Part shown: piece by piece, positions 835 through 21,762 of the stretch
How positions within the stretch are numbered: position 1 is the stretch's first letter
How the letters are laid out: each line of letters begins with the position of its first letter
Assembly (NCBI GenBank): GCA_009602725.1
Contig: WELB01000105.1
Coordinates: forward strand, 9,417-35,269
Reading direction: 5' to 3'
From: Spirogloea muscicola
Lineage: Eukaryota > Streptophyta > Zygnematophyceae > Spirogloeales > Spirogloeaceae
Length of the DNA: 25,853 bases
The notes under the pieces: model-generated
Told to the model about the DNA's origin: nothing
Database searches by the model: none
What the model saw: only the letters and a program-made list of their open reading frames with translations
Translations under genes and position numbers: made by a program

Positions 835-1215
835 CTTCTTTTTCGGCAGCCGCTGGCTGGATCTCCTCCAGCGGCTTGCCCGTCAGGCCATTGACCGGCG
901 GCCGGGTCGGCTGTCGCTTCTATGGGGAGCCGGTCGACTTTCCTGCAGTCGGGTCGCTGGCGCAAGTGTTTCGAATGCGCCTGGCCGTCTCGCTGCAGAG
1001 GTCTATGGCCCGGGCGTTGCACCTTCGTGCCGGCAGAGCCCTCGCTGCTGCCTCTGGCTCTGGCGAGGGGACCCACTTCAACGAGCCTAGCATCTCCGAC
1101 CTGCGGCTGCTTAGCAGAGGTTACTGAGTGATTCTCCTGTAGCTCTTTGGATTTTGTCCATTCTTGTTTTTGGCTGGCTTCTGCCAGCCCCTCTCTTCTA
1201 TGGGCGAGCTCATTC
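835..1215 (+). mobile_element. 5'-truncated LINE 3' end with 3' UTR stem-loop
   Basis: The coding remnant reads WLDLLQRLARQAIDRRPG, then after a frame shift VGSLAQVFRMRLAVSLQRS, ending SISDLRLLSRGY with a TGA at 1125-1127. This is the C-terminus of the large LINE at 21763-25850. The 3' UTR carries GTCCATTCTTG, then the stem-loop GGCTGGCttctGCCAGCC at 1172-1189, and ends around CTATGGGCGAGCTCATTC. The next LINE tail starts immediately after it. Internal frame damage shows it is dead. Confidence 0.75.
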
Positions 1216-1562
1216 TCTTTCTCGGTCTGCCAGGGGCGCTGCCCGGCTTCAATGCCGCCGGTTCGTTAGCCCAGGTCTTCCGCATGCGCCTGGCAGTATC
1301 GCTCCAACGATCCCTTGCCCACGCCGTCCACACGCGATCAGGACGTGCTCTGGCCGCCGCCTCTGGGTCTCGGCGGAGTGCCTCCTTCCCTGCCGCGAGT
1401 TACTCCGACCTGATGTTGCTCACTCGAGGTTACTGAGCTTCCCTAGTGCGTTGTCGTGTTCGGTAGTGTAGTCCTTTTTTCTTTTTTCAGCGCCCCTCTT
1501 TGGCTTTGGAGATTGTCCAATCTTTTTGGGCTGGCTTTGCCAGCTCTTTTCTCTATGGTGGC
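1216..1562 (+). mobile_element. Second LINE 3' end, head-to-tail with the previous one
   Basis: An intact frame from about 1222 to 1436 reads PGFNAAGSLAQVFRMRLAVS and ends SYSDLMLLTRGY-stop. It is the same protein end as the preceding copy but belongs to the SYSDLxLLTRGY subfamily. Its 3' UTR differs from the previous copy (GTGTAGTCCTTTTTTC, then CTTTGGCTTTGGA), yet it has the same GTCCAATCTTTTTGGGCTGG stem-loop at about 1528-1545. It begins right at the end of the preceding element, with no host DNA in between. Confidence 0.75.
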
Positions 1563-2060
1563 TGGGAGAGGCCAGCCCAGATCAAAGACTGAGCAAAGTC
1601 TGAAGGGGTCAGGGAAGGCGGCCTCAAAGGCCATGTTAGCCTGAGAACGTCACTCACTAAATTAATCAAACATTTCTGGCAGCTAGTCTGTCTGATTTGA
1701 GGCTCCTCATCCGTCACTACTGAGTGGTCCATCCTCCCCCCGTTCTGACATAGCTTCTTCGGGCCCCTTCGTAAGAAGAAAGTGCTCGCCCATTGAGAAT
1801 AGGGGCTGGAACAACCAGCCCGAAAAAGAATGAACAGAGTACGAGAAGGGGGCCAGGGGAAGCGCTAAGTAACAGAAACAAAGCTGCTACGAGACACTCG
1901 TAGCTGCTAAGCTTTCTTTGGCCCCTTCGAACTTTTGTCGATTCTTTTCGGGCTGGCTTTTAACATTTCGGGCTCGCTTGCCCCCATTGGGAGTGCCACA
2001 TCTTCCCACTGCAAGCCCGGAACCGGGCGGACCAAGCTCGGCCCCGCTCTGGGCCAGCAC
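1563..2060. mobile_element. Stack of LINE tails in both orientations upstream of HGH1
   Basis: Pieces recognised are: a minus-strand stem-loop at 1563-1580; a plus-strand tail ending SLSDLRLLIRHY-stop at about 1678-1721; a minus-strand tail at 1781-1857 carrying GCTCGCCCATTGAG and the stem-loop; and a plus-strand tail at 1918-2030 with GGGCTGGC near 1950 and TTGCCCCCATTGGGAG. The inverted junction near 1890-1908 has the arms CTACGAG/CTCGTAG. These remnants reach to within about 200 bp of the HGH1 start codon, so part of that promoter is probably LINE-derived. Confidence 0.55.
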
Positions 2061-2233
2061 TTTCTTCTGGACCTGGAGGACAACCCCTGCCAACCCAAAC
2101 CAATCTATCAAGCCAGCAGCTGTCCGTCGGGGACGCAGGGTTTAGCTTGGCGCCTGGCTCCCCGCGAGGGCCGCCGTGACCGCCCGCGCGGGCTCCGCCG
2201 GCCCGGCGAGCAGCGCTGCCATCTCCAAGGGTA

Positions 2234-4535
2234 ATGGCCGCGGAGCTGGACGAGCTGGTGGAGTTCCTGGGCTCCCCGCGCCCCGAGGTCTGCTTTGCAT
2301 CGCAGCGGCCACCGAGGAGCCTTTACGGTCCTCCACACACCGCCATCGCCCCGTGAAGCCATTGAGCTCGCCAGTGCGCTCGCAGAGGCCCGCCTCCTCG
2401 CTGGAGCTTGACGGGGCCTCGAGGCGGCCCTGGCAGGTGCGCCGGGAGGCGGTGAGCATTGTGGCGGGCCTGGCGGGCAGCGAGGACGGCGCCGCCGTGC
2501 TGGCCGCCAGCGCCCCGGCGCTGCTGCCGCCGCTCCTGCGCCTCCTGGCTCAAGACCAGGTGTATGCAGCGCGCCTCTGCTGAATCCCTGAACTCGACTT
2601 AATCCCAAAACCTTAAATCCCACCTCCCGCCTGCCATCTTTCTCAAAGCCTCGGCCTCCGTGGAACAGTGTGCTTTGGCCCGCGTCGTTGCTTCCTGGTG
2701 GTAGCCCACAGGAGCGCCGCAGCTTCATCCCTGCCACTGACCAGCTGGGCCGCTTGCAGCCGGCTGCTGACGACCTGGGTGCAGCTCGTGCCGTGCCCTC
2801 GGGCCCAATGCTCCTCTCACCAGAGACCTCGGCTGTTACACCAGGAGGTGGCAGAGCCTGCGGCAGGCGCTCTCGTGAACCTGTCGGCAAATGCAGGAGT
2901 GGCGGCCGCCTTGACTCAGCATGGCGGAGTGGAGGCTGCCGTGCAGCTCCTACTGCAGCCGCCGGCGGCCCGGCCGAGCGCAGCACGGCTGCTCGTGATG
3001 CTGCTGGCCAACCTCACCCGCGAGGAGCCTGGCGCCCGGCACATGCTGCAGGTTCCGAGCTGCCGGCGGAGACCAAGTCCTACAATGCTCGAGTACTTGC
3101 AGACCAGCAGGTGCCAGCTAAGGGCAGCCTCGTTGACAGCTGCCTTCATTTGCCGTTGTCTGCAGGAGGACCCCCGGGGGAAGGCAAAGGGCGAGTATCT
3201 GGCCAAGCTCCTGCAGCTCTTCCTGCGGACACCACTAGACAAGCAGCGTGAGGACTAGGTCAGCCTGTCCATCTGCTGCCTTATCCTTACGAGTACAATC
3301 ACGGCAGGCTGACGAGTTTTGCGAAGTGCCTGTGCTGCAGAAGACGACGCCTTTGAGCACGTTGCGGCGATTATGGTCAATGTGACACGCCTCCAGGCTG
3401 GGCGGCGGCTGGTGCTGGATCCGGAGCGTGCGCTGCTGAAGCAGATACTACCACAGATTGAGTCTCAGAGCGTTGTTCGTCGGCAGGGGGTGCGCGCCCT
3501 TTCATGCTCTTAGTTGTTCACTTGTGGCACATGACTTCATGTGCTGAAGTCAGTCTAGAACCCCAAATGCAACAGGTACTCCTCCTAAAATCTCCCGATG
3601 CTAAGCAACATCTACCATACTGTAGGAAGTGGCGCAACCTCTGCACTGTCAGGGACACTGACATGCATCCTTGAAATGCTTGCCAAACGCTGGCTCTGAG
3701 GCCTGACCCTGCCTGAAGAAAATCTGGTTGCGCACAGCTTGATTCAACCCTGGTCAGGTGTCAGGCACAGTGAGGAACTGCTGCTTTGAGGCTGAGACGC
3801 AGCTGGCCAACCTACTCCGAACTTCAGAGTTTTTGTGGCCCGCTCTGCTGCTGCCATTGGCCGGCTCCAGAGCTTACAGCGACGCAGATTGCAAAATGAT
3901 GCCGGCAGAGCTTGCTGTGCCACTCTCGTTCGAGCGCCCAGTTGAGGAGGACCCACATGTCAAGGCGGAGGCTGCTGAGGCTCTCTACCTTATTGCAATG
4001 CAGGTGAGTAAGCATCCTCGTCCTCTTGATAATTCACAGTTCTAAACACTTTCTCCAGACTTCCTTGGGTTGGTGAGTATGGTTGGTCCTGCATGTGTTT
4101 TGGTGGGCTGCATAGCATGAATTTTAGCGGATCTCTGTGGTGGGTTGCATGAGAGCCTGTACTGCCCTGGAAAGCAGGAGGAAGGCCGCCAAGCCCTCTG
4201 GAAGGTCAATGCTCCAAGGATCCTCCAAGTGGGGTACGAGGACGAGCAAGATCCCCAGGTCAACGAAGCATACGAGCGCATTGGCTCGCTGGTAAGTCAC
4301 CTCCCCTCCTTGAGGAGATAAGACAAGTAGGCTGTGTGAAGTACAGCATGAATGGGTTGCAATCTTGCTTGCTGGTATGCCCCTGGTGGTGAGTAGCAGG
4401 GCTTAGGACGTTGCTTTTGTAGCTTGGCATCTTCAATGCCATGCTATGCCTGACTGAGTCTTACACCCTTGTTTGGCTGTCCCTTGTCTGATGCAGCTTG
4501 TAGAGGAAAGTGGCAAGCAGGAGCAACAGCAATAG
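2234..4535 (+). CDS. HGH1: HGH1-family protein (armadillo-type eEF2-folding chaperone), 8 exons
   Basis: Eight exons join in phase with GT-AG introns: 2234-2287, 2437-2559, 2845-3051, 3166-3247, 3341-3489, 3758-4003, 4178-4291 and 4497-4535. They total 1014 nt (337 residues), near the usual family length of about 340-390. Visible family landmarks are VRREAVSIVAGLAG, ALVNLSANAGVAAAL, LLVMLLANLTREEPGARHML, HVAAIMVNVTRLQAGRRL (DUF383 region), then VRNCCFE, VKAEAAEALYLIAMQ and EEGRQALWKVNAPRILQVGY ending in YERIGSL (DUF384 region). Yeast Hgh1 is a cytosolic armadillo-repeat factor that works with TRiC and Hsp90 to fold translation elongation factor 2; the same role here is inferred. The first ATG at 2234 gives the short MAAELDELVEFLGSP start typical of the family. 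No broken frame or missing landmark was found. LINE tails lie immediately upstream. Confidence 0.93.
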
Positions 4536-6020
4536 TCAGTACATGTGGTTGTGCCCACCCACAAGAGCATCCATGTTGCATTGAGCAGCTAGGTAACCTG
4601 TTGACCTGCAAGCAATGTGAACTCTGTTGGCTGGCTTGGGCTTTTGTCTGCGTTCCGAGGACGCCTGTGAGGTCAATTGAAGATAGACGGGTATGGGAGT
4701 CCTTTAGACATCTGCAGATAAGTATCTGCTCGTCCACAGTCTTATGAATACCCTCATGGGTGCAAAAATTTGGGGGAGATGTGGCAAAGATGGTCCTGTG
4801 CAGTGGGCGTGTTGTACATGGCACCTATTCTTGAGCCACTTAGTCTCCTGAATGATTAGTACTTCACTCAGAAGTAGATTGTCAGCTACTCCGATTCCTC
4901 ACTGCTGGGAGCCGACTTGTTGACCTTCCTGCACGGATCAAATGGCAGCTGTTCCAAGCACGCATTGCTATGAATTGCCAGTCAATAGCAACAGGAAGTC
5001 TGTCCTATCTAGAGGTGGCACCCTCCATACATCTCGTGCCATATTGGGCCGCTCGACATAGCTTCTGCAAAGCTCAAGGCAAACAAGAAGCTATGCTGAC
5101 AATTTAATCTCTTAATGATATACCCATTGCCAATAAAGTTGAAGTCAATTACCAGCTATCAACTACAAGTCTATCTCTTCTGTATGCACAAGCACGGTGG
5201 AATGATCATTACAGTGACTATCTTCAAACAAATTCTGCATAGATTCTGAAGTCGGTCTTGTGCTGCTAGGGAACAGCATAGAAAGCCTGACTGAGGCACA
5301 GCCGATCTGTCTCTCTTGCCTTCCTGAAGTCGTATGTGGTCTGAAGGGTCAGTGTTTCTCTAAAAGGTAGTATGAAAGAACTGTATGAAACAGCAGATAT
5401 CACCTTCTGGTACTGCTGTCAAGCGTGGTACTTCCTGCCAAAGTGGTCCTCCTGCCTGACTTATACATGGTATGTGTCAAGTCAAAAGTTCAAGTCAAAA
5501 GGCTCCAAGAAGCTACAGCCGAACCCTCATCAGATAGGGCTCCCTCCAAATACAGTGGGACTGAAACGTATGTGCAAAAGAGTGGGTTGCAATTTGTATT
5601 GGACTTTCAGTCACACAATACAAGTGACAACGTTGTGCTTCTAGCTCGCTGCAATATGTCAATAGTATCTCCTGTCAATAGTATCTCCAACGCTGTGCTT
5701 CTAGCTCGCTGCAACATGTCAATAGTATCTCCAACGCTAGCTCCACACGAGTAGGCGCATTTTGTCACACCTCAGAGATTGATCTGGCCTTCAAGTCCTC
5801 AGGAACATGCAAGGCGCTAGCCTTGCATGGCTAGTCAAGTGCATTTTGTCAATGACCACGCCAGCTGGTCATGAAAGGCAAGCTGTTCTTGAAGGCTTGG
5901 TCAGTGGCGGCATAAAGCATCAGTAAGGATGTGCTGATTTTCACGCCCAAGTGCGATGTTGCGCGGCTGGACGCTGTAAGGACCTGCAGGTGTGCACAGT
6001 GGCAAGAAGCAAATTCTCCA
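4536..6020. other. Non-coding stretch downstream of HGH1
   Basis: This holds the HGH1 3' UTR and about 1.4 kb without a recognisable gene. Short open frames exist (for example 4469-4747 and 5372-5754, + strand) but none resembles a known family or shows splice-consistent extension. The only structure noticed is the tandem repeat at 5628-5746. Confidence 0.6.
5628..5746. repeat. Two-copy 60-bp tandem repeat with an internal 16-bp duplication
   Basis: The segment beginning CAACGTTGTGCTTCTAGCTC repeats at a 60-bp period (second copy starts at about 5688), with only a few substitutions. Inside the first unit, TGTCAATAGTATCTCC is itself duplicated at 5657 and 5673. No coding role is apparent. Confidence 0.85.
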
Positions 6021-6860
6021 AATGCGACGAGGGCTGTGACAAGCCAGCCCACATAAGATTGGTGCTTAGGCAGAAAAGGCAGCAAAGGGTTAAGTGTACG
6101 TCACAGAAGTCCCAAGGCGAGGTTCGACCAGACAAGTCGCACACACTTTTTCCCCACGGAACTTCCTCCCCTCCCAGATGCATCACATCCTGCCGTCTAA
6201 TGACATTCGACCGGGCGGGCCACCTATTCCGTCCTGAACTAAGCCAGGTTGTCTGAGCAGAACCGATTACATGCTTCTTTGGGTCGTCAATTCATTTGTT
6301 TCCAACTTACAGTTTTGTAGTTCTGCCTGTCCGTTACATTGGGCTGGCCTCTCACAACTATTGCTGTTTTCCCATTAGTTTCTGCTTGAACAATGTTTTT
6401 TGGCTTGAACTGGCCTCACTTATATCGATGCAAGGTAATGGCCAGCCCAAAAGGAATGTGCAATGTACGGGGGCGGGGGTTGCAAAGAAAGCCAGCCGGC
6501 TGCATACGAACGGTATGATGATGAGCAAGCCGATGGCTATCAGGTGACAAAATAGTTTGGTCTGTGAGGGCAAGCCCGTAGTAAATACTGGGGTTGCTTT
6601 CACACGCACCAGGCAGGGCAGATGCTGCGCCGCTCAGGACACCTGGCAGGACCATTCCGCTGTAGCTGGCTCGCCGCTCTTGTATGATGGCAGCCGGATT
6701 CTTCGACACATGGGCAATTCCAAAGCGCTTATGGCCCCTTCGTAATTTGGCCCCTCCGAACCTTGTCAACTGTTTTCGGGCTGGCTTATTACAGCCCTTG
6801 CCCCCATCGGGAGAGTCCCAATTCAAAGATGGGCAAGGGCCATGAAATACCAGCCCGAGG
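6020..6860. mobile_element. Degenerate LINE/SINE tail fragments
   Basis: Short pieces of the stem-loop module occur near 6031-6055 (minus), 6338-6350 (plus), 6430-6445 (minus), 6728-6805 (plus, with GGCCCC, GTCAACTGTTTTCGGGCTGG and TTGCCCCCATCGGGAG) and 6828-6860 (minus). The module-B sequence TTGAACAATG...GGCTTGAACTGGCCTC lies at 6388-6420. No long coding remnant is left. The plus copy at 6728 is followed directly by an inverted copy, giving a fold-back arrangement. Confidence 0.5.
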
Positions 6861-7212
6861 ATACCGGACAAGGGACTGGACTGGGAGAAAATTTCCGAAG
6901 GGGGCGATGGCTGTGAAAGCAGAAGGGGCGAGGGCTGGGGAAAGCAGTAGGAAGTCGAGAAAGTAGATTGACGCGCTATCTCAGAGCTTGCCCGGTGGGA
7001 TGAATCACTCAGTAACCACGAGTGAGGAGCGCAAATTCGGAAGACTAGCAGCCGGAAAGCAGCAGGAAGCCGGATGAGCGTCGGATGAAGGTGGCGCTCC
7101 CAATGGGGGCAAGGGCTGTGAGAAGGCCCAAGAAAGAATTAACAAGGTTCAAAGGGGCCAGATTACGAGGGGGCCAAAAGCGCTATCTCAGGATTGGGGG
7201 AGGATGAATCAC
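6861..7212 (-). mobile_element. LINE tail(s), minus strand
   Basis: Read on the minus strand, 7085-7009 ends ...LPNLRLLTRGY-stop (stop 7011-7009), a short 5'-truncated coding end. Above it, 7085-7195 is the 3' UTR of the next copy (stop at 7215-7213): GGCCCCTTTGAACCTTG, a degraded stem-loop and TTGCCCCCATTGGGAG. The 3' UTR of the upper copy thus abuts the truncated coding end of the lower one. Nothing was recognised in 6861-7000. Confidence 0.55.
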
Positions 7213-7480
7213 TCAATAGCTACGAGTGAGGAGCCTCAGATCCGAAAAACTGTCGGAAAACAATCGCCCTGACGAAAGCCAGAGCCCGCAGCGAGAGCAC
7301 GCAGGCCTAAAGCGTGGGCCATGGACCGCTGAAGGGAAATGGAGAGCCGCATGCAGTATACCTGGGCTAACGAGCCAGCTGCGTTGAAGTCAGCCTGCTC
7401 ACCTCGTCTGCAGGACACAGCGCGCCGCGCAAGTCGGAGGGGAGGGAGCAGCTCTGAAATGACAAAAGACGCTCTACAGG
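7213..7480 (-). mobile_element. 5'-truncated LINE C-terminus, minus strand
   Basis: The minus-strand frame reads RGEQADFNAAGSLAQVYC, MRLSISLQRSMAHALGLR and GFRQGDCFP. A one-base frame break precedes DLRLLTRSY-stop (stop 7215-7213). The closest match is the plus-strand copy at 18975-19455. Its 3' UTR continues to about 7085 and has the TTGCCCCCATTGGGAG tail type. Confidence 0.7.
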
Positions 7481-7539
7481 GGGGTGATGGCTGTGGAAGA
7501 AGCAGGTCATTCAAAGAAGAGCAGCTCCTCCAGTTCACG

Positions 7540-7725
7540 GCAATGGCTGTGAGAGGCCAGCACAAGATAAAACAAGGGCCGAAGGGGAGGTCATTCAAAG
7601 TGGGTGGCCGCGGAAGGCCGGCCAAGATCAAGAGTGGACAAGGTGCGACAGGGAGAGAAGATGCGCAGTGCGCATGAAATGAAAGCAAGGCCAATTCAAG
7701 CCAATGCATTGTTCAGGCGGAATTG
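7540..7725 (-). mobile_element. Module B plus two stem-loop copies (SINE-like composite)
   Basis: On the minus strand, 7722-7664 carries GCCTGAACAATGCATTGGC and the GGCC...CATGCGC end of module B. Then come a GGCCGGCCTTCCGCGGCC variant stem near 7605-7623 and a GTGCTGGCCTCTCACAGCC stem-loop near 7546-7565. The order of module B followed by stem-loop matches 18545-18350 and 8890-8735. No coding potential is seen. Confidence 0.5.
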
Positions 7726-7862
7726 CAGAAATTGCAAAGAATGTGACGGGGAAAAGGAAAGAGAAATAGCGCGCGCCCAGAGAGAAGAGTGGCTGGCAGA
7801 AAGGAAGAGGGCCGACGGGGCGGGGCGGGAAGCGGGAGAAGAAATGGAGAGAAGGAATGAGC

Positions 7863-7978
7863 TCGCCCATAGAAGAGAGGGGCTGGCAGAAGCCAGCCGA
7901 AAAAGAATGGACAAAATCCAAAGAGCTACAGGAGAATCACTCAGTAACCCCTGCTAAGCAGCCGCAGGTCGGAGATGC
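7863..7978 (-). mobile_element. Very short LINE 3' end (LLSRGY-stop subfamily)
   Basis: On the minus strand this reads LASPTCGC / DLRLLSRGY-stop (near 7957), then the UTR CTCTTTGGATTTTGTCC and the stem-loop GGCTGGCttctGCCAGCC, then CTATGGGCGAGCTC. It is almost identical to the UTR of the plus-strand copy at 1128-1215, so the two are recent relatives. Only a few codons of coding sequence remain. Confidence 0.7.
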
Positions 7979-8280
7979 TAGGCTCGCCCATGGAAAAAGA
8001 GGGGCTAGCAAAGCCAACACAGAATAGAATGGACATCACCCAAAGGCCACAAAAAGGTGCCGAAAAGAACAAAACAAACACTTAGACACGAGATGATGCG
8101 GATGGAAGCTCAGTACCCACGAGTGAGCAACAGCAAGTCAGAAGAACTCAAGCTGGGAAAGAGGCAGTCCGCCGACACCCAGAGGCAGCAGCCATACCGC
8201 GGCCGGCGCGCGTGTGGACTGTGGGAGCCAGAGAGCGCTGGAAAGAGACCGCCAGTCTCATGCGATATAATTGGGCTAGC
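7979..8280 (-). mobile_element. LINE 3' end, SSDLLLLTRGY subfamily, minus strand
   Basis: The minus-strand coding remnant at about 8275-8110 reads MRLAVSFQRSLAPTVHTRAG and RRTASFP, and ends SSDLLLLTRGY-stop (stop 8112-8110). The 3' UTR down to 7979 resembles the one of the large LINE at 21625-21762: TTTTTGTGGCCTTTGG, a degraded stem-loop GTTGGCtttGCtAGCC, and CCATGGGCGAGCC. A stop codon lies inside the coding remnant. Confidence 0.65.
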
Positions 8281-8650
8281 CACCAGTCAATCTGGCCGCG
8301 CTTTCTTCAATATTGGGCTAGGGAGCCGGCAGCATTGAAGCACCTCCCCCTTTTTGTTTCCGGCTGAGATGGGCTTGCCAGCTGCATATCTGTCGCTCTT
8401 GCGACGACGAGTTTCGGCCTGTTTGCAGCGTGCTCAGGCTAGTGCCCTGCACCAGAAAGCTGGGCGAGCTTTAGTAGGTGGCAGAAGGGCTCCGTTACTG
8501 GCATCTAGTATTCATGCATCGAGTAGTGACCTTTATGTTTTGACCCGTGGTTATTGAGCGGGTCAATCTGGTGTAGGTTATGTAGATCTTTAGATGTTAT
8601 TGCCATTGTACCTGGCCATTTGGCCTACGTCTCTTTCTAACACACGGTCT
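8281..8650 (+). mobile_element. Family-2 LINE 3' end (DLYVLTRGY-stop)
   Basis: The frame 8354-8557 reads GLPAAYLSLLRRRVSACLQR, then ALHQKAGRALVGG, and ends SSDLYVLTRGY-stop. This shares only the general layout and the (L)LTRGY end with the major family, so it is a second LINE family. Its 3' UTR AGCGGGTCAATCTGG...TACCTGGCCATTTGGCC carries a 12-bp palindrome (GGCCATTTGGCC) instead of the GGCTGGC stem-loop. Related tails lie at 9374-9530, 14600-14790, 19600-19800, 20000-20210 and 21310-21510. The leading part (8281-8350) has the CCACCAGTCAATCTGGCCGC module. Confidence 0.7.
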
Positions 8651-8905
8651 TCTACCCTGGCAGACCAGGCCGCCGCTCGATGGCCTGGCGGGCAAGCCGC
8701 TGGAGGAGATCCAGCCAGCCACTACAGAAAGAAAGTGCTCGGCCATTGAGGATAGGGGCTGGAAAAGCCAGCCCAAAAAAGAATGAACAGATTACGAGAG
8801 GGGGCCAGAGAGAAGGCGCGCGGGGCGCATGAATTGAAAGGGAGGCCAATTCAAGCCAATACATTGTTCAGGCAGAGTCGAGTGCAGACTAAACAATGCC
8901 AGGGG
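8651..8905 (-). mobile_element. Module B, stem-loop and a 60-bp LINE coding scrap
   Basis: Read on the minus strand: module B (CTGAACAATGTATTGGCTTG, 8880-8818), GCGCGCCTTCTCTC, GGCCCCCTCTCG, the stem-loop TTTTTTGGGCTGGC...CCAGCCCC (about 8780-8755) and CAATGGCCGAGCACTTTC. It then runs straight into the LINE coding scrap GWLDLLQRLARQAIERRPG (8715-8655). The stem-loop tail therefore abuts a 5'-truncated LINE fragment. Confidence 0.6.
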
Positions 8906-9240
8906 AGGCGCTAAGATAAACAAGCACACAAAGAAACAGGATCACTCAGTAGCCCCTGCTAAGCAGATTAGAGATGCTAGGCTCCTGGAAGCCCCGTGGA
9001 CGTCGATGGCCATGGCCGCGAAGTACGCCGATCACGTGGAGGGTGGTCGGCGTACTTCCGCTTCCTTGCGCCGGGCCGCCAAACCGACCGCGTACCCAGC
9101 GGTCGATGCCGACATGGAGGGGTTGGCGGAGTCGACGCAGTCGGCGGTCACCACACCGCGATGAAACGCGGACCTCCTCGATGAACAACTCCCTGCATGC
9201 CGTCTCGCAGGAGTCGTGGAGAGGAGCGAGTGGCCCCGCC
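8906..9240 (-). mobile_element. Internally deleted LINE end, minus strand
   Basis: Minus-strand remnants include LLRDGMQGV-like sequence, VVTADCVDSANPSMSAST, LAARRKEA, a DHPPRD-like stretch and MAIDVHGA. The sequence then jumps to EPSISNLLSRGY-stop (stop 8948-8946). About 80-90 codons present in the large LINE (the GWLDLL to RQSA part) are missing. Further deletions and frame breaks lie upstream. The 3' UTR (8905-8945) is the AACAAGCACACAAAG type also seen at 10080 and 21550. The 12-bp inverted repeat 9020-9031/9047-9058 lies inside. Confidence 0.65.
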
Positions 9241-9373: not shown

Positions 9374-9530
9374 AGTATCTAGTATTCATGCATCGAGTAG
9401 TGACCTTTATGTTTTGACTCGTGGTTATTGAGCGGGTCAATCTGCTGTAGGTTATGTAGATTTTTAGATGTGCTTGCCTTTGTACCTGGCCATTTGGCCT
9501 ACATTTCGTTCTAATACACGATCTCTCCTC
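9374..9530 (+). mobile_element. Family-2 LINE tail, only about 19 codons of coding left
   Basis: SIHASSSDLYVLTRGY-stop (stop 9429-9431) and the UTR with TACCTGGCCATTTGGCC are nearly identical to the copy at 8500-8650. The near identity over about 140 bp shows a recent duplication or a recent second insertion. Confidence 0.75.
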
Positions 9531-9725
9531 GCCTGGCCCCTTCGGCACTCGTTCACTCCTTTTGGGCTGGCCTTTCCCAGCCTGAACAGTGTACTGGCTT
9601 GAATTGGCCTCCCTGTCATTCCATGCGCTCCGCGCGCATTCTCCCAGCCCATAGAGTATATTTTTTTCGTATATTTGAAACAAACGAAGGCCAAATGGCC
9701 AAATACAGAGGCAAGCACATCTGAA
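9531..9725. mobile_element. Stem-loop plus module B (+), then a family-2 UTR scrap (-)
   Basis: The plus strand holds GGCCCCTTCGGCACTCGTTC, TTTTGGGCTGGCCTTTCCCAG at about 9560-9582, then directly the module-B core TGAACAGTGTACTGGC and TTGAATTGGCCTCCC. On the minus strand, 9725-9680 carries the family-2 tail (ATTTGGCCATTTGGCC-like). No coding sequence is seen. Confidence 0.5.
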
Positions 9726-9734
9726 GCAGCAAAG

Positions 9735-9960: not shown

Positions 9961-9964
9961 GATT

Positions 9965-10204
9965 GGCGCAGAACTGGCTTATAGAAGAAAGTGCTCGCCC
10001 ATTGAGGATAGGGGCTGGAAAAACCAGCCCAAAAAAGAATGAACAGAGTACGAGAAGGGGGCCAGGGGAAGCGCTAAGAAAAACAAGCACACAAAGAATC
10101 AAAGCAGCTACGAATCACTCAGTAACCCCTGCTAAGCAGCCGCAGATCAGAAATGCTAGGCTCCTGGAAGTGGGTCCCCTGGCCAGAGCCAGAGGCAGCA
10201 GCGA
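9965..10204 (-). mobile_element. LINE 3' end (LLSRGY-stop), cut by the assembly gap
   Basis: The minus strand reads AAASGSGQGTHFQEPSIS, then DLRLLSRGY-stop near 10117, followed by the 3' UTR TGTGTGCTTGTTTTTCTTAG, CGCTTCCCCTGG, the stem-loop GGGCTGGtttttCCAGCCCC near 10015-10032 and CAATGGGCGAGCACTTTC. The coding part continues into the run of N, so the full length of this copy is unknown. Confidence 0.7.
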
Positions 10205-10399
10205 NNNNNNNNNNNNNNNNNNNNNNNNNNNNNNNNNNNNNNNNNNNNNNNNNNNNNNNNNNNNNNNNNNNNNNNNNNNNNNNNNNNNNNNNNNNNNNNN
10301 NNNNNNNNNNNNNNNNNNNNNNNNNNNNNNNNNNNNNNNNNNNNNNNNNNNNNNNNNNNNNNNNNNNNNNNNNNNNNNNNNNNNNNNNNNNNNNNNNNN
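10205..10399. other. Assembly gap (195 N)
   Basis: An unbroken run of N. It separates the LINE end at 9965-10204 from the poly-A run and PC-esterase start. Long open frames that cross it are artefacts of undefined codons and lysine codons. The promoter and 5' UTR of the following gene may lie here. Confidence 0.99.
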
Positions 10400-10524
<125 letters not shown>

Positions 10525-14260: not shown

Positions 14261-14261
14261 G

Positions 14262-14600
14262 AGCTGCGAATGGCCGGGCCAAAGGTGTGTACATCAAGTG
14301 ATGATGGTGGTGGTGGTGGTGGTAGCTCCTCGCATCGAAGTTGGCCCAGCCACACATGATAGACGACTAATTAAAAAGGCATCCACGAAGGAGCAGTAAG
14401 AGTCAGTAAACAGGCTCGAGAAGGAAGCGCATTGAGTTGCAAGAAGAGCCGCGGATGGCCGGGCCAAGGAAGTGCACATCAAGTGATGGTGGTAGCTCCT
14501 CTAATCACTTGATGTCCAGCCACGACATGCATGACGACTCATCAAGAGACCTCCACGTAGGAGCAACAATAGTCAGTAAATAGCATCAAGAAGCATTCCT
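14262..14600. repeat. Diverged tandem duplication (about 185-bp period)
   Basis: Unit 1 (about 14262-14440) and unit 2 (about 14446-14600) share, in order, ATGGCCGGGCCAA, ACATCAAGTGATG, GGTGGTAGCTCCTC, GACGACT, CATCCACG/CCTCCACG, AGGAGCA and AGTCAGTAAA. Unit 1 has a (TGG) microsatellite at about 14305-14322 that is shorter in unit 2. Unit 2 contains a perfect 12-bp inverted repeat (14476-14487 / 14504-14515). The element type is unknown. Confidence 0.8.
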
Positions 14601-14790
14601 GTGTATTTAAAACAGACGAGGGCCAAATGGCCAAGTACAAATGCAAGCACATCTAAAGACCTACATAAGCTTCAGCAAAGTGACCCGCTCAGTAACCAGG
14701 GTCAAAACATGAAGGTAACTATCGATGCCTGAATACTAGATGTCAGATATGAAGCCCTTCTGCCACCAACTAGAGCTCAAGAAGGAAGTG
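14601..14790 (-). mobile_element. Family-2 LINE tail, minus strand
   Basis: The minus strand gives a degraded coding end (family-2 motif HVLTLVT in place of YVLTRGY; stop 14691-14689), then GTGACCCGCTCA-type sequence and the GGCCATTTGGCC palindrome near 14631. It corresponds to 8500-8650. Frame damage shows it is old. Confidence 0.6.
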
Positions 14791-14834
14791 CATCGTACTA
14801 AAGAATGGACAAGATGCAGACAAGAATTAGCTCT

Positions 14835-15062
14835 CCTAATGTAAAGGAAGTGGCTGTGAGAGGCCAGCCCAATGGAATTTACAAGGTCTGAAAGGGCCGG
14901 AAGGTGCAGGAGTGGAGTCGCTCCGCCTAGAGCCTGAGGCGCAGCGAGGCACGACCAGCACGAAGCAGCAAGGCATTAGCCAGGAAGCGTGCAAGAAATG
15001 GAGAGCCTCATTATTACACCAGAACCTGGAAGCCCGCGGCGTTAGAGTCTGCCTGCTCACTC
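14835..15062 (-). mobile_element. Degraded LINE C-terminus and stem-loop, minus strand
   Basis: On the minus strand, nucleotides matching GAGCAGGCTGACTTCAACGC, then GGCTCTCCATTTC, align with the QADFNAAGS and SISLQRS codons of the copies at 7213-7480 and 18975-19300, but with stops and indels. The UTR stem-loop GGGCTGGCCTCTCACAGCC lies at about 14850-14870. The GA microsatellite starts right at its upstream boundary. Confidence 0.55.
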
Positions 15063-15071
15063 TGTGACGGC

Positions 15072-15073
<2 letters not shown>

Positions 15074-15164
<91 letters not shown>

Positions 15165-15213
15165 NGAGGGAGGGAGGGAGGGAGAGAGGGAGGGAGGGAG
15201 GGAGGGGGGGAAA
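15074..15213. repeat. (GA)n then (GGGA)n microsatellite
   Basis: About 91 bp of perfect GA dinucleotides, one undefined base at 15165, then GGGA-type repeats to about 15213. The undefined base shows that the array length is uncertain in the assembly. On the opposite strand it gives a purely Ser/Leu shadow frame. Confidence 0.95.
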
Positions 15214-17262
15214 GCGATCGCCCCGCCCTGTATCAGGAGCTGCATTCTTTTATTCAAGGCACGGCAAGCAATCAGATGCAGTGGCGGGCAGGTACCCTAG
15301 TTTGCTGCTGGCGCTACTAGCAACGGTAGTTTGGTCAGTCTGAGAGTGGTATACACAGGTCCCCACTCCATGTGCATCCTTCCAGGCTGGTCCAGCTCAA
15401 GCAAGCAATTCAGGTGTACCACTCCCAGGCGGTCCGTTAGGATGTAGACAGCCGAACATATGTACGCTGCTCAGTTGCGAGTAACCTTGTGGAGCTGACA
15501 GCGTAGTGTTGAGGCTATGCAATTTGATTCTCTCACACAAGCTGAAGCGCTTGGCTTCAGTGCAAGAACGTTGGAGAAGTGGCCCAACAGCAGTGCACCA
15601 CATCATGCTAGCATGTAGACGCAAGTGAATGCCATTGCACGTTACAGGAGAATTGCAAGGATGTGCCAATGATGGACCTTTTTTGAGTAGCTAAAGCTGA
15701 ATACTAAATTGACTGGAGAACTGTACAGATAACATCGGAGTGCATGTCTAGTCCCTCAACATCTTGCAATTGCATCAAGACCAATGTCAATCCTAGCGAT
15801 TTGGGTACATTTGTGCAACGTGGACGCAACAATCTCATGCTTATGTACTGACCTACAGGTCCAGCATCTGCAAAATCAGGGCTAAGAGGGATGGGAGTGG
15901 TAGTTGGAGGTCGTATCCCTGAAAGCAGGAACGTGTGGAGACGGGAAATACGTCAATGCTTCCAGCTGCTTCTAGTGGCAGATCCTAAGTAGCCTGCAAA
16001 AGTTGCTCCAGCTCATAGTTGCAACAAATCTTGAACATCAGAACGAATGGTGACTTCTGCCTATCTTGAGCTTACTAGAGCAAGCTACAGGCCAAGCAGG
16101 AGCAGAAATTTTTCTGACTCTAACATAGGGGGAAAACCCTTTGGTACGTGATTGCTAGGCCACATTTATACGCAATTCTTTGGGCTGGCTTTCGACAGCC
16201 TATGCTTTCCTTTGTGCAACAAGCGCTCTCCCCAGGAGGCTCCTCCCCCACTGTGGGCAACATACAAATCTTCAGCTACAAAAGCTGAACCTTCAGTTTC
16301 TTATATTCATTTTGCCGAAAGAGGTGACCAACTTTCCTGCTGTCTGCGTGTCAGATCACCGGATAATAACGAAGGGCTACTAAAACTCCGCACGGTAGAT
16401 GTGCTATTGCTTAGCTGGTATGCTCTTGCTCAACTGGAGCTCCCCTCGCTTGTGCTGCTAACCCTTCGTCAAATCAAGATTTTGCTATCTCGGAGCCATT
16501 ACCCCGATATGGAGGCGCCTCAAATTGCACCTTGTGAGACATTCTCTTACTTTGAGCCTCATGCTTAATACCCCACCCTCAATTTGCATGAAGTGCAGTT
16601 TCTTCGACATACTTTCTGACGCTAGGGCTGCACAAGCTATCGACTCACAGCTGCACGCATGTCACTCCCCGTTCTTTCACACACCCCAGCACGAGTAAGG
16701 CAGGAAGAACAGGTATTGAGCATTATGTGTGCATAGAGATAGGACATTAAGGGCGGTCTAGAGTCTAACTCATGGCTTCTGACGTCCAGCTTGTACTCTA
16801 AGCTGCCAAGAGTTGCACATATGTATGCCTCCCTGCAGCCCATGGGCTTCTAAGCCTGTTGCGACTATGAATGCATAAGCACAGACGTTCTTCTGCACAT
16901 CCCCCTTTCTCGAGCTGCCCTGCACCTCCTGGCTCCCGGCTTCTGGCTCCTGGCTCCTGGTTAGAGTCATGTTGCAAGACTCTACTAAGAAGCACTCTTG
17001 AATGTCAGGCTGCCCAGCTGCACTCTTCAAGCCCAGCGCTGACGGCCGCCCTGCCGAGGGGCAGTATGTCACATTGATCAAGTAGGGCAGCAGAGACGTG
17101 GCTAGCAACCAAGTCAAGCGCAAATCAGCCGCAGGCCCCTTCGCTCCCTGCTACCCAAATGCAAGGCCGATGTCACAAAGAGGTGCTGCTCGCAGCACTA
17201 AATATCGCAGAGATACAGACATCGGCTATGAGAGACAGAGCTGTGCAGGTAAAGGAGTGCCA
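15214..17262. other. Two-kilobase stretch without a recognisable gene
   Basis: An isolated stem-loop module (TTCTTTGGGCTGGCTTTCGACAGCC) lies at about 16174-16200, + strand. The longest open frame, 16152-16568 (+, 138 codons), begins just ahead of that module and resembles nothing known. Imperfect GGCTCC(T/C) repeats lie near 16930-16962. The right end is the 3' flank of mL43, which is on the minus strand. Confidence 0.5.
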
Positions 17263-18050
17263 TCATAGGCGGAGGTCGGGCGTCCAGGGGCCCTGGACGC
17301 TGGGCCGTGTGGTGACATGCCGCGTTTTCAGCTTTTTGACCTTGCGCCCGAGCGCATCGCGCAACCGGGAGGCATGTCGCTGCACGTCATCGGCGTCCAG
17401 GTTCTTGACACCGACCACGCGGCAGCTTCCATTGGCTGCAAGCGACAGTGGTGACGCGTGCTCGGCGGGCGTCAGCTAATAGGTCAACAGCACAACTGGT
17501 CAGCAGTGCATGGGGCAGCTTGATGATCTGTGTCGATCAAGGTCGGGCGGCTTAGACTCGTGATAGCCCGCTTGGTTAGAGGCGAGCAAGCCAGAGCAGG
17601 GGCTCAGGGCCTCGACTCAACTTGGGCTGAGAATGTGTGTTTGGTATGTACGACCGGCAGGCAGGAGCACAGAGGCTGATACTCTGGACCGGACACACAC
17701 TGTGGGCTTGGGCGTTTTTCTGTGTGCAAGTCTGGACACAACAGGGCTTCGAGCATGGACCAGAGCTTCGCCTGGCCTATCAGCCCAACAGCTCAGAGCG
17801 ACAGTGTTGAGGAGCTCGGAAGGAGGGGGCGGGGGCGTGGATGACCGTAGTGCGCGGCGAGGTGGGGATGGCGGCCGCGGCAGATGGCCTCCTCGACTTC
17901 CACCTGCGGGTTGGCGGCGCGGAACGCCGCCAGCAGGCTGCCGCCCTCGCTCTCGGCCTGCGCAAACCGGCGCGCCCCAGCACTGCTGCCCGACACGTCG
18001 CACAGCGACACCACGAGCCTGCGCAGCTGCCACACGCCCAGCTTCGCCAT
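17263..18050 (-). CDS. MRPL43: Mitochondrial ribosomal protein mL43 (L51/S25/CI-B8 domain), 2 exons
   Basis: Exon 1 is 18050-17846 (205 nt, phase 1) and exon 2 is 17435-17263 (173 nt), joined by a GT-AG intron of 410 nt, for 125 residues in total. The start MAKLGVWQLRRLVVSLCD followed by GSS, the CRGRHPHLAAHY segment, and the end GRKVKKLKTRHVTTRPSVQG PW plus a short DLRL tail are diagnostic of mL43, a thioredoxin-like-fold protein of the mitochondrial large ribosomal subunit. Length and conserved blocks match plant and fungal homologues. There is no long presequence, as is common for this family. An additional SEGG segment in exon 1 is a small lineage insertion. The frame is intact. Exon 1 and its upstream region are very GC-rich. 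Confidence 0.92.
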
Positions 18051-18215
18051 GGCCGTCCGCCGCCGCCGCGCCCGCGGCCGCTGGGCCACGGGCGCGGCGC
18101 GCTGAGGCGCCGGCGCGGGCAGTGGCGGGAGATAGGTTTCACGCTTTGGCAGTGTCGAAAGTAAGACAGTAGATGGCATTCCCAAAGAAACAAAGTAGGC
18201 GGGCTTTAGGGTTCC
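18051..18215 (-). promoter_or_regulatory. Presumed mL43 5' region
   Basis: This is the 165 bp between the mL43 start codon and the first repeat module to its right. The part next to the ATG is extremely GC-rich (18055-18120). No TATA-like box is obvious. The assignment as promoter/5' UTR comes from position only. Confidence 0.3.
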
Positions 18216-18555
18216 AAATTTAGGGCACTGGTTTAATGAGGGCTGTGAACAGCCAAGGAATTGACAAGGGCGAAGAGGCCCGAATGTTTAGAGTGGACAA
18301 CGGTGGCCAAGCAGATGTAAGAAAGAGAAAGCGCGGCCATATTAACTGGTGGCTGTGAGAAAGTGCTCGCCCATAGAGAAGAGGGACTGGCAAAGCCAGC
18401 CCAAAAACAATGGACACGGTCTGGAGGAGCCGGATGGTGCAGAAAGCAAGGTACTAGAAGAGAGAGAGAAAGAGAGAGAGAAGGCGCGGTGCGCATGCAA
18501 TGAAAGCGAGGCCAATTCAAGCCAACACATTGTTCAGGAAAAAAATCAGAAAGTG
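18216..18555 (-). mobile_element. SINE-like composite: module B followed by stem-loop
   Basis: Minus-strand order: TCCTGAACAATGTGTTGGC and the module-B end CATGCGCACCGCGCC (18540-18483), a CT-rich tract, GACCGTGTCCATTG, TTTTTGGGCTGGC ttt GCCAG (about 18405-18386), CTCTATGGGCGAGC and ACTTTCTCACAGCC. Total length is about 190 bp and it is non-coding. It shares its 3' part with the LINEs, the classic pattern of a SINE using a partner LINE tail. Nothing else was recognised in 18216-18330. Confidence 0.5.
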
Positions 18556-18604
18556 CAAGAAAAGAGAAGAAGAGAAAGCGCGGCCAGGATGACTGGTGGC
18601 TGGG
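18556..18604 (-). repeat. Left arm of a 49-bp perfect inverted repeat
   Basis: The reverse complement of this segment is identical base for base to 18823-18871. Read on the minus strand it begins CCCAGCCACCAGTCATCC and ends TCTTTTCTTG. An adjacent shorter copy of its first part (18605-18636) makes a partial tandem duplication. Confidence 0.9.
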
Positions 18605-18822
18605 AGAAAGCGCGGCCAGATTGACTGGTGGCTGGGAAAGGCCAGCCCAAAAGAATGGACAAGGTCTGAGGGAGCTTGAGTGCGAACGACTAGGACTAAG
18701 ACATCAAGGAAAGACGTCGCCCTGACGGAAGCCGGAGGCCGCCGCCAAAGCTCGGCCTGCGCGCAAGTGAACCGCGAAGGCGAGGGACCGCTGCATCGAG
18801 ACGGCCAAACGCATACAGCCAG
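18605..18822 (-). mobile_element. LINE tail enclosed between the inverted arms
   Basis: On the minus strand the coding remnant at 18820-18700 reads GCMRLAVSMQRSLAFAVHLR, then ALAAASGFRQGDVFP. Its UTR has GACCTTGTCCATTC and the stem-loop TTTTGGGCTGGCCTTTCCCAG near 18632-18655. The coding end is damaged: DLRLL-type codons are not readable. Confidence 0.6.
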
Positions 18823-18871
18823 CCCAGCCACCAGTCATCCTGGCCGCGCTTTCTCTTCTTCTCTTTTCTTG
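18823..18871 (+). repeat. Right arm of the 49-bp perfect inverted repeat
   Basis: Identical to the reverse complement of 18556-18604. Beyond the arms the similarity fades (TCTGAT is shared a few bases further out), which suggests that the original duplication was longer. Confidence 0.9.
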
Positions 18872-19455
18872 GCTCTCTGATGTGGTGGACCGTTCCAATC
18901 CGAGGTCTGCCTTGAGGGCTTCTCTCTTGAGGGCTGGCCATGCTGCGGCGAATGCCGCTCGCAGCACAAAAGCGCTTCCAATTTGACAGCAGTGGGTGTG
19001 AGAGGCCAGCCCAGCACGGCGACAAAGCACGCAGGCCACCTGGCAGTGGACGAGTTCGTATTCCTGGCCGTGGATGTGCACGGGGCTCTCAGGTCTCAGT
19101 GGCTCGACCTGTTGGCCCGGCTTGCGCGGCGCGTTGTGTCCCGCAGGCGAGGTGAGCAGGCTGACTTCGACGCCGCTGGCTCGCTAGCTCAGGCCTTCCT
19201 AATGCGCTTCTCTATCTCCCTCCAGCGATCTATGGCCCACACCTTGCACCTGCGTGCCGGCCGTGCTCTAGCTGCAGCCTCTGGCTTCCATTAGGGGGAT
19301 TGCCTTCTGGCTGCTACTCTTCCGGATTTGCGGCTTCTCACTCGTGTTTACTAAGTGATCCGTCCTACCCAAGCTGAGAGCGCTTTTTGACCCTTCGGAC
19401 CTTGTCAATTCATTTCGGGCTGGCTTATCACAGCCCTTGCCCCCATGGTAGAGCC
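18872..19455 (+). mobile_element. LINE 3' end, plus strand, with frame damage
   Basis: The coding remnant reads AVDVHGALRSQWLDLLARLA, SRRRGEQADFDAAGS, FLMRFSISLQRSMAHTLHLR and AAASGFH-stop. After a frame break the end is ATLPDLRLLTRVY-stop at about 19351-19353. The UTR has GATCCGTCCTACCC, CCTTCGGACCTTGTCAATTC, the stem-loop TTTCGGGCTGGC...CAGCCC near 19413-19437 and TTGCCCCCATGG. A minus-strand stem-loop scrap lies at 18991-19015, in front of the coding remnant. Confidence 0.7.
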
Positions 19456-19599
19456 ACTTCTCCTTTAAGAGAGCCAGAATGCCTGAATCTTGAAACCCTA
19501 AACCACAAATCCTACACCCGAAACGCTTATCTCTAAATCCTTATCCCTGGATCTAAACCCTTCTGGCTCTTACAAAGGAAATGGAGTGTGTATTAAGTG

Positions 19600-19850
19600 A
19601 TGGAGGGCCTGTGTGGCTGAAGTACAAAGGCAAGCACTTTGACATGTGTATGTCACCTGCATTTAGCTGACCCGCTCAGTAACCACGAGTCAGCACATAG
19701 AGGTCGCGAACTGATGCCCGAATACCGGACGGCAATCGACCAGCTCTCGTGCCACCAGCTAAGGCTCGACTAGCTTTCTGATGCAAAGCATAAGCCTGAG
19801 CAAACAGAAAAACGCTTCCAGATTGACAGCAGTGGCTGTGAGAAGCCACC
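19600..19850 (-). mobile_element. Family-2 LINE end, minus strand
   Basis: The minus strand reads AYALHQKASRALAGGTRAGR then SGIRASVRDLYVLTRGY-stop (stop 19678-19676). The UTR follows to about 19600. Immediately before the coding remnant, at 19823-19850, is a stem-loop scrap (GGCTTCTCACAGCC). The segment 19456-19600 between tails contains AAACCCTAAACC-like sequence and nothing else recognised. Confidence 0.65.
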
Positions 19851-19949
19851 CCATTGGAAGAGAGAAAGAGCTTCCATGAGAAGAAGTGGCACTCCCGATG
19901 GGACTTTCTAATACACGGCGTTTTTCCCAATGGGAGGGCGGTGGCTTTC

Positions 19950-20212
19950 CCAGCCCCTTCGAACCTTGTTCATTCTTGTTGGGCTGGCCGTTCCGAGCCC
20001 CTATCCTCGTCTGCAGCGAGCTCAGGGTCATGCGCTGCATCAGAAAGCTGGTCGTGCCTTAGCTGGTTGTTCAAGAGCTTGTCAATTGCCGTCCGGTATT
20101 CGAGCATCAGTCAGCGACCTCTATGTGCCGATTCGCGGGTCAGCTTAGCAGCAGGTGACGTACATTGGTCAATGTGCTTGCCTTCGTACTTAGCCACACA
20201 TGGCCTCATCTC
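19950..20212 (+). mobile_element. Stem-loop tail fused to a family-2 LINE end
   Basis: CCCCTTCGAACCTTGTTC, then TTGGGCTGGCCGTTCCGAGCCCC at about 19978-20003, ends in TATCCTC. It passes directly into family-2 coding sequence: LQRAQGHALHQKAGRALAG, ending SDLYVPIRGSA-stop (20146-20148). The usual TRGY end is altered. The family-2 UTR runs to about 20212, where the MITE starts. Confidence 0.65.
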
Positions 20213-20215
20213 TTA

Positions 20216-20721
20216 GGGCCAATTTACACCGGGTCGGTCGGTCGCGCCGAGGGGTACGTGTTGCGCGGTGGATAACACGACCGGGCTAACGGCATTTCGC
20301 GCCCGGTCGCGGTCATCCGCCACGGAGGCGCCACATCGGACGCTGACCAGGACGCCTTTTGCCCCCGTCAAGGAGGAAGAACGCCGTTTGCACATCTGGC
20401 ACTGACTAGGACATCTGTAACCCCCGTCAAGGAAGAAAAGGCGCCGTGTGCCACGAGGGTGGTCAAGTTCCCGGCCCTCCTCCCCGGCCCCCTTCTCGTA
20501 CTATGTTCATTCTTTTTTGGGCTGACTTTTCCAGCCCCTATCCTCAATTGGTTAGCACTTTCTTCTCGAGGAGGGCCGAGTTTTCGACCACCACCCCCCC
20601 CCCCCCCCCCCCCCCCCCCCATTCCGCACGTGCAGGCAACCTCGGCTTCCGTGGCGGCGACCATCCCCTTGACGCGGTGGTCAGCACTTGCGGGGCCGAC
20701 CGACCCGGTGTAAACTGGCCC
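20216..20721. mobile_element. 506-bp MITE, PIF/Harbinger type
   Basis: The left end GGGCCAATTTACACCGGG and the right end, read inverted, GGGCCAGTTTACACCGGG match over 26 bp with one mismatch. TTA flanks both ends (20213-20215 and 20722-20724), which fits the 3-bp TWA target duplication of PIF/Harbinger elements. There is no transposase; it is a non-autonomous element. It contains two copies of a 59-bp tandem unit (20333-20391 and 20392-20450), a nested GGCTGAC/GGCTGGC-type stem-loop tail (about 20495-20565, + strand) and a 27-nt C run. Confidence 0.85.
20594..20620. repeat. 27-nt poly-C run inside the MITE
   Basis: An uninterrupted C homopolymer lies just after the nested stem-loop tail. Its length is likely to be unreliable in the assembly. 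Confidence 0.95.
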
Positions 20722-20764
20722 TTAATACACTCGCATTGTATCCTCTACGAGCACTTAACTGGAA

Positions 20765-21305
20765 GAGAAGTGGCTCTTCCAATCGGGGCAAGGGCTGTGG
20801 AAAGCCAGCCCGAAAAGAATTGACAGAAGGTCGAAGGGCCCATAATGACGGAGGGGCCTGGAAATGCTATGTCAGAACGGGTGGAGGAACGGCTGGGAGA
20901 GGCCAGCCCAGGAAAAGACATAGCAGGGACGACGACTGCAAGGGCCAGCTCGCTGCACAGAAGCTGATACTCGACGTCGCAAAAATGACCAGTCGGCTGC
21001 CGGCATGCCCATCTGGGCAAAAAGGGGGGCAAAGGCTGCGAACAGCCAGCCCGAAGAAGATTTACAAGGTTCCAACAAAAGTTAAAAACATGTGGCTACG
21101 AAGCAGATTTTCTAAATCCAGTCAAAAGGAATAAGCGCGGTGCGCTTGACTTCCGACCTGGCGGGGCTTGGGGGCGCTTCCGCACGAGCAGGCGGCCTTG
21201 GCCTCTGTTGCCACGTCCATCAGAAGATAGTGCTCGCCCACTGAGAATAGCGGCTGGAAAAGCCAGCCCAACAAGAACCCACAAAGGACGAGAAGGAAGC
21301 TTCCG
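20765..21305 (-). mobile_element. Series of LINE tails on the minus strand
   Basis: Stem-loops lie near 20790-20812 (GGGCTGGCTTTCCACAGCCC), 20890-20910 (GGGCTGGCCTCTCCCAGCC), 21033-21052 (GGGCTGGCTGTTCGCAGCC) and 21250-21267 (GGGCTGGCTTTTCCAGCCG). Between the second and third, the minus strand encodes GMPAADWSFLRRRVSASVQR, a family-2 coding scrap (about 21020-20940). The spacing is irregular and no complete coding end is present. Confidence 0.55.
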
Positions 21306-21309
21306 TGTA

Positions 21310-21515
21310 CTAGAAACAAATGTAGGCCAAATAGCCAAGTACAAAGCCAAGCACATCTAAAGATCTACATAACCTACAGCAGATTGACCCGCTCAATAAC
21401 CACGGGTCAAAACATAAAGGTCACTAATCGATGCATGGATACTAGATGCCAGAAACGGAGCCCTTCTGCCCCCAACTAGAGCTCGCCCAGCTTTCTGGTG
21501 CAAGGCACTAGCCTG
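21310..21515 (-). mobile_element. Family-2 LINE end, minus strand
   Basis: The minus strand reads ALHQKAGRALVGGRRAPFLA, then SDLYVLTRGY-stop (stop 21395-21393), close to 8354-8557. The UTR contains the ATTTGGCC arm near 21325, with one change (CTATTTGGCC). The GCTTGCTTTTGTACTTGGC segment is also shared. Confidence 0.6.
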
Positions 21516-21624
21516 AGAAGGGGCCCAGGGGAAGCGCTAAGAAAAACAAGCACACAAAGAAACAGCAGCTACGGGTCACTCAGTAACCCCTGCTAAGCAG
21601 CCTCAGCCCTCCCCCTGCCGGGAA
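21516..21624 (-). mobile_element. Minimal LINE tail (LLSRGY-stop) at the 3' end of the large LINE
   Basis: The minus strand reads LRLLSRGY-stop (near 21583), then CGTAGCTGCTG, TGTGTGCTTGTTTTTCTTAG and CGCTTCCCCTGGGCCCC. It is joined on its 5' side to the GGGCGAGCTC end of the large LINE at about 21625, with no host sequence between. It lacks its stem-loop, being overlaid by the family-2 copy below. Confidence 0.6.
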
Positions 21625-21762
21625 GAGCTCGCCCATAGAGAAGATGGGCTGGCAAAGCCAACCCAAAAAGAATCGACAATGTCCAAAGCCAAAGAAAAAA
21701 GTGTCGGAAAAAGACTACACTACAAATCACGAGACGGTATGGAGGGAGATGCAGATAGATGC

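Follow-up and report, generated by a model that had tools for sequence, protein, structure and literature searches.

The closest described systems are the R2 elements, in which target-primed reverse transcription uses the 3' 67 nt of the RNA in R2Tg, with a pseudoknot, and a two-hairpin element in R2Bm (PMC12222951, in the part of that report available to us). In the stringent-type L2 clade, according to the accessible portion of its source, a 3'-tail stem-loop is required for retrotransposition of UnaL2, ZfL2-1 and ZfL2-2; the loop decides specificity and stems are exchangeable, once at about half rate (PMC4176376). The available part of another account describes a hairpin near the 3' end of plant L1 elements, with stringent-type recognition proposed, a stem that varies with compensatory changes, and a conserved UCU loop and CGAG flank; it also reports partly shared tails within the Chlamydomonas genome, among green-algal RandI/Dualen elements and SINEX, with RandI ending in ATT or CTATTT repeats (PMC3747384). 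Here we describe a 3' tail built around a single hairpin and common to many families of long interspersed nuclear elements (LINEs), found in a 25,853-nt stretch of Spirogloea muscicola DNA (the window; positions 9417–35269 of contig C105, WELB01000105.1) and across the 153 Mb genome (471 contigs) that was searched. To our knowledge, the choice of RNA by LINE proteins has been worked out for few elements, and a single genome with thousands of tails, many families and one hairpin could make both the recognition code and its cross-use readable from natural variation. The hairpin tail is probably the 3' recognition signal of a dispersed, R2-like LINE group, at which target-primed reverse transcription would start. 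A literature search, with coverage that lacked most subscription journals, found no description of it.

To locate the hairpin we used a pattern with both 8-nt arms exact (GGGCTGGC-N2-12-GCCAGCCC), which had 2182 matches genome-wide, and none when reversed. A nucleotide profile of the tail, iterated from four starting tails, identified 33 tails in the window at E ≤ 0.01 and 39 at E ≤ 1, with no match at E ≤ 1 in the sampled sequence read backwards. The original prediction, made from the letters of the window, had listed a conserved stem-loop at 28 places (11 on the + strand and 17 on the − strand), each of which falls inside one of the 33 profile matches or no more than 3 nt from it; five further tails (E ≤ 0.01) were added. 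The tails are therefore real, but the exact 8-bp form has no match in the window, where the copies are decayed or come from families with shorter pairing. Rfam and tRNA searches of the window gave no match.

LINE copies were then sampled by protein, either the reverse transcriptase (RT) or the C-terminal part, without regard to the hairpin. The C-terminus, ending in SDLxLLxRGY or similar, was readable in 52 of 70 loci (L035–L104), the others including truncated or broken copies. A hairpin followed the stop in 47 of these 52 copies, representing 26 groups of 3' untranslated regions (UTRs), against 0.16 of 52 expected from shuffled UTRs. One of the 47 (L043) is inserted in antisense; the remaining 46 of 52 are in sense, which bears out the assignment of the element to LINE tails, and the autonomous copies, as in stringent-type elements, share a conserved hairpin at a defined 3' end. 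The stop-to-hairpin distance was 41–100 nt (median 80; 47 matches, including the antisense one), slightly shorter than the 45–110 nt first proposed. Among the five copies with no match, the sequence of L061 ends too early, L044 has a different sequence, L090 is decayed, and L079 and L104 carry a second class of tail (C-type, see below).

Conversely, the sampled loci contained 309 unique tails, 276 of them with at least 300 nt upstream, and LINE C-terminal coding sequence lay within 420 nt upstream in 170 of the 276. The other 106 were not united by any upstream sequence (the largest group had 3 members) or by a non-LINE body that would point to a short interspersed nuclear element (SINE) or an independent element; for this reason they look like short 5'-truncated LINEs rather than a SINE, in line with the expectation that the motif is no element of its own. 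No SINE sharing the tail was seen among the sampled loci.

The tail is terminal. The copies that were read have a pyrimidine run (CTTCTTC-like), with no poly(A), as the end of the element, about 30 nt 3' of the hairpin, and target-site duplications are in excess. A position in the 3' UTR, 41–100 nt behind the stop and near the element end, would also suit a signal for processing of the LINE mRNA (3' end formation, stability or export), but we consider this improbable, given the pyrimidine end and the retention of the tail by heavily truncated copies, as expected if synthesis starts there. The tail's place and the target-site duplications, together with the R2-like protein considered below, instead suggest recognition by the RT.

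What the families share extends beyond the hairpin. The three UTR subtypes of the original prediction correspond to families B, T and A, which differ in how their proteins end and have UTRs that can hardly be aligned upstream; the claim that they keep only the stem-loop proved wrong, as the last ~65 nt align and share the order TGTYCATTCTTTT-hairpin-spacer-GGGCGAGC-YTTCTTC, with GG-N-N-GAGC downstream of the hairpin ahead of the pyrimidine end. Over 78 pairs among 13 families, the 5' arm was 96% identical and CAGCC 100% identical, while identity at four-fold degenerate sites, taken from as many as 120 codons ahead of the stop, was 40%, with 30% expected from base make-up; the arm values are slightly high, as the families were chosen from copies whose arms had no more than one mismatch, which is the case in 46 of 52 copies. 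Because the arms are this constant next to near-saturated four-fold sites, the tail element is under selection, as had been supposed.

An unlikely alternative is that the sequence and not an RNA hairpin is selected, the inverted repeat being a linear protein-binding motif or a signal acting at the DNA level, for example in second-strand synthesis. It would account for stem letters that are almost invariant, for a hairpin that shows no compensatory change, for similar numbers of C-to-T and G-to-A variants (below), and for the last GC of GGGCTGGC, which is kept even where unpaired (T- and S-type). On the other side, the conserved letters form two complementary arms flanking a variable loop, with 6–8 bp in the majority tails of all 11 families with at least five sampled tails, and the three one-sided changes in pairs 2–6 among 18 tails all leave G.U, though two of them sit in one single-copy tail (L094). 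When the hairpin was masked from the profile, the flanks alone recovered 152 full-span tails, 136 of which had at least 6 bp between the flanks (at least four of these being other pairings), compared with 15.7% of shuffled middles. Flank-exact A/B tails numbered 4478 genome-wide.

The hairpin is the predicted fold of the tail: A and B tails fold better than shuffles (z = −3.4 and −3.5), and since compensatory change is absent, the case for structure draws on folding and the few G.U changes. In A/B tails, for example at 1783–1844 (−), GUYCAUU 5' of the hairpin can pair with AAUGGGC 3' of it, enclosing the hairpin in an outer helix that is strong in these tails (over 122 non-redundant tails, −6.35 for own partners, no better than −6.11 for permuted partners, but ahead of −4.85 for letter-shuffled arms). 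A first alignment of 13 tails, with B tails one column off, gave no hairpin in RNAalifold but a candidate 3-bp downstream helix (alignment A2, columns 38–40 with 46–48), in which 100% of cells pair (2 of 500 shuffles as high) and W/E tails show a two-sided change in one pair (296 of 500 shuffles). With 18 tails this helix was weaker, with 90.7% of cells pairing (11 of 500 shuffles) and two pairs changed on both sides (190 of 500); the evidence for it comprises three pairs and essentially one type difference.

Several results weigh against the tail being recognised through this hairpin. Shuffled sequences fold as well as W and T tails do (z = −0.98 and −0.84). Covariation, which the original prediction had put forward as a check and which would help to place the hairpin among stringent-type tails, was absent: none of the six pairs was changed on both sides in 18 tails, the outermost pair was missing in 7 of the 18, and the RNAalifold covariation term was −0.1. 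The outer helix is not type-specific, 130 of 1000 permutations being equally good. With all other positions of the A-type context unchanged (423 exact copies), C-to-T variants, which keep a G.U pair, numbered 43 versus 31 G-to-A variants, which break the pair (p = 0.20). Within one family, variants per three sites numbered 20 in the stem and 26 in the loop (p = 0.46), both below the flank (43; stem versus flank, p = 0.005). A C-type tail is also seen at the end of a LINE belonging to this group (L079), so not every member needs the letters of the hairpin. Finally, the endonuclease model on which part of the R2 likeness depends is weak (mean pLDDT, the predicted local distance difference test, 48.7).

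Decay of the stem at the rate of its neighbours had been named beforehand as evidence against a selected structure, and at copy level the stem is indeed close to the loop, though below the flank. We do not count this as refuting, because dead inserts should show such decay, and the constraint is visible between families. The similar decay of stem and loop in individual copies means that an inserted stem has little protection, which fits dead copies; the constraint acts on active lineages. A within-family divergence of 1.3% in the stem versus 7–9% in loop and flanks was discarded as probably inflated by profile selection.

C-type tails have, in place of GGGCTGGC, the hairpin GAATTG-GCCTCCCTTT-CAATTC or a decayed form of it, followed by ATGCGC, GCGC and a CTTCTCTC end, with 1825 exact-flank matches genome-wide. 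The window holds six (GAATTGGCCT or close), without the main hairpin:

591–680, −: C-type tail
6375–6450, +: C-type tail
7647–7735, −: C-type tail
8802–8890, −: C-type tail
9575–9660, +: C-type tail
18462–18560, −: C-type tail

We rejected GAATTG/CAATTC as a compensated version of the main hairpin, as no C-type tail scores higher than shuffles with the profile. A neck, TGGCCTC, common to C-type and other tails was not significant either (W/S/A 116–156, T 722 and B 1999 of 2000 shuffles).

B-like proteins were found with an A-type tail (L072) and with a C-type tail (L104), one copy each, and these are possibly template-switch chimeras. Such cases could be taken to mean that the tail spread recently between families by template switching or recombination, with no need for selection. 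This is very unlikely, given that tail types otherwise mostly follow protein types, and that each type has loops and flanks of its own, the arms being the most constant part.

The protein behind which the tail lies has an RT domain (RVT_1, E = 7e-15 in L024 and 1.5e-10 in L018), and the closest solved structure by sequence is the R2 protein (E = 0.0012). Its C-terminal endonuclease is nearest to R2 among solved structures both by sequence and by fold, the modelled region of L058 having an R2-like, restriction-like endonuclease fold. Judged from these comparisons and the model, the protein carries an RT and a putative R2-like restriction-like endonuclease. It is not R2 proper, with its one 28S ribosomal DNA (rDNA) insertion site, as LINE matches are spread over many contigs and copies sit inside other LINE copies. 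The C-terminal piece in the window had at least 194 genome matches (150 of 3819 candidates scored) and the RT piece at least 150 (150 of 937 candidates scored), the latter 66–91% identical to the window's piece among the matches listed. The strongest PF00078 matches lay at positions other than those of the RT-piece matches, several clustering on contigs C61, C119, C170, C267, C294 and C445, and may belong to other retroelement types.

Apart from the C-type tails, the window contains the following LINE features (E values from the tail profile):

1146–1210, +: LINE tail with hairpin, TGGCTGGCTTCTGCCAGCC type (E = 9.8e-12)
1504–1558, +: A-type LINE tail, hairpin GGGCTGGCTTTGCCAGC (E = 2.2e-9)
1556–1605, −: W-type LINE tail with hairpin (E = 1.9e-6)
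1762–1771: target-site duplication GGCCCCTTCG, left copy, read in the sequence
1772–1919, −: 5'-truncated B-type LINE insert of 148 nt, with a 10-nt target-site duplication
1783–1844, −: B-type tail of this insert, hairpin GGGCTGG-TTGTT-CCAGCCC (E = 3.6e-12)
1920–1929: target-site duplication GGCCCCTTCG, right copy, read in the sequence
1926–1997, +: T-type LINE tail, decayed 3' arm, interrupted by the 148-nt insert (E = 1.9e-7)
6018–6055, −: LINE tail, newly added (E ≤ 0.01)
6329–6364: LINE tail, 3' arm broken
6437–6469: partial LINE tail without 3' arm
6755–6815, +: T-type LINE tail with hairpin (E = 3.4e-13)
7093–7154, −: LINE tail, newly added (E ≤ 0.01)
7860–7922, −: LINE tail, 7-bp hairpin GGCTGGC-TTCT-GCCAGCC (E = 2.1e-14)
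8736–8797, −: B-type LINE tail with hairpin (E = 3.0e-13)
9992–10053, −: B-type LINE tail with hairpin (E = 2.0e-13)
14829–14892, −: S-type LINE tail (GGGCTGGCCTCTCACAGCC; E = 6.1e-11)
18236–18271, −: LINE tail, newly added (E ≤ 0.01)
18330–18361, −: LINE tail, newly added (E ≤ 0.01)
18364–18424, −: A-type LINE tail with hairpin (E = 6.8e-13)
18609–18669, −: W-type LINE tail with hairpin, then CCAGTCAATCTGG (E = 4.4e-15)
19393–19455, +: T-type LINE tail with hairpin (E = 5.7e-15)
19814–19853, −: LINE tail, newly added (E ≤ 0.01)
20496–20557, +: B-type LINE tail, decayed hairpin (GGGCTGAC; E = 1.3e-9)
20772–20825, −: T-type LINE tail with hairpin (E = 2.0e-13)
21231–21291, −: B-type LINE tail with hairpin (E = 5.2e-11)
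21626–21688, −: tail of the longest LINE copy in the window (GGGTTGGC..GCCAGCCCA, a G.U pair), which in L035, where this copy was also sampled, follows the stop (E = 2.4e-14)
22187–22594, −: LINE C-terminal piece with zinc-knuckle-like motif and restriction-like endonuclease, copy broken; the modelled region of L058 corresponds to it
23614–24030, −: LINE RT piece, copy broken; L024, with its RVT_1 match, is a relative

Two oppositely oriented W-type tail ends make up a 49-nt perfect inverted repeat at 18556–18871, with 218 nt between the arms. At 10205–10399 the window has a run of N, followed by 124 A (10400–10523) directly 5' of an ATG-led reading frame; this resembles a gap in the assembly or an inserted poly-A stretch.

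If the tail is indeed the recognition signal, the LINE protein would bind it after transcription and set the pyrimidine-rich 3' end in its active site, and target-primed reverse transcription would begin at the nicked target. The hairpin would be the invariant core of a ~65-nt terminal tail common to many families of one LINE group, recognised by sequence and shape together, which would hold the arms almost unchanged and let loop and spacer drift. This route would often produce 5'-truncated copies with short target-site duplications on both sides. It is conceivable, though we regard it as doubtful, that the stem is a password read as sequence across LINE families, such that any family's protein could start on any family's tail even though loops, spacers and synonymous sites are close to saturated between them.

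L2 proteins have an endonuclease of a different type. Like the 3' elements of R2Tg and R2Bm, as far as the accessible part of that report goes (PMC12222951), the tail described here is compact and lies in the last 60–70 nt of the RNA, and the RT and C-terminal endonuclease are nearest to R2 by sequence and, in the model, by fold. R2 targets rDNA, whereas the LINEs described here are dispersed and often lie within one another, and one hairpin sequence is common to many families in one genome. Tails shared among elements of one genome recall RandI/Dualen in Chlamydomonas, but end in CTTCTTC-like runs and not in the ATT or CTATTT repeats given for RandI in the available part of that account. In the L2 elements, by the portion of the source at hand, the loop decides specificity, whereas in this group the stem is constant in sequence and it is the loop that varies; were a common password in use, the families would form one pool that shares templates and swaps tails, in contrast to L2, where loop recognition is private to each family. 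In plant L1, within the same limits of the source, it is the stem that varies, while here the arms are fixed and the loop is free. A constant stem with a variable loop is thus unusual, the inverse of the L2 and plant L1 tails.

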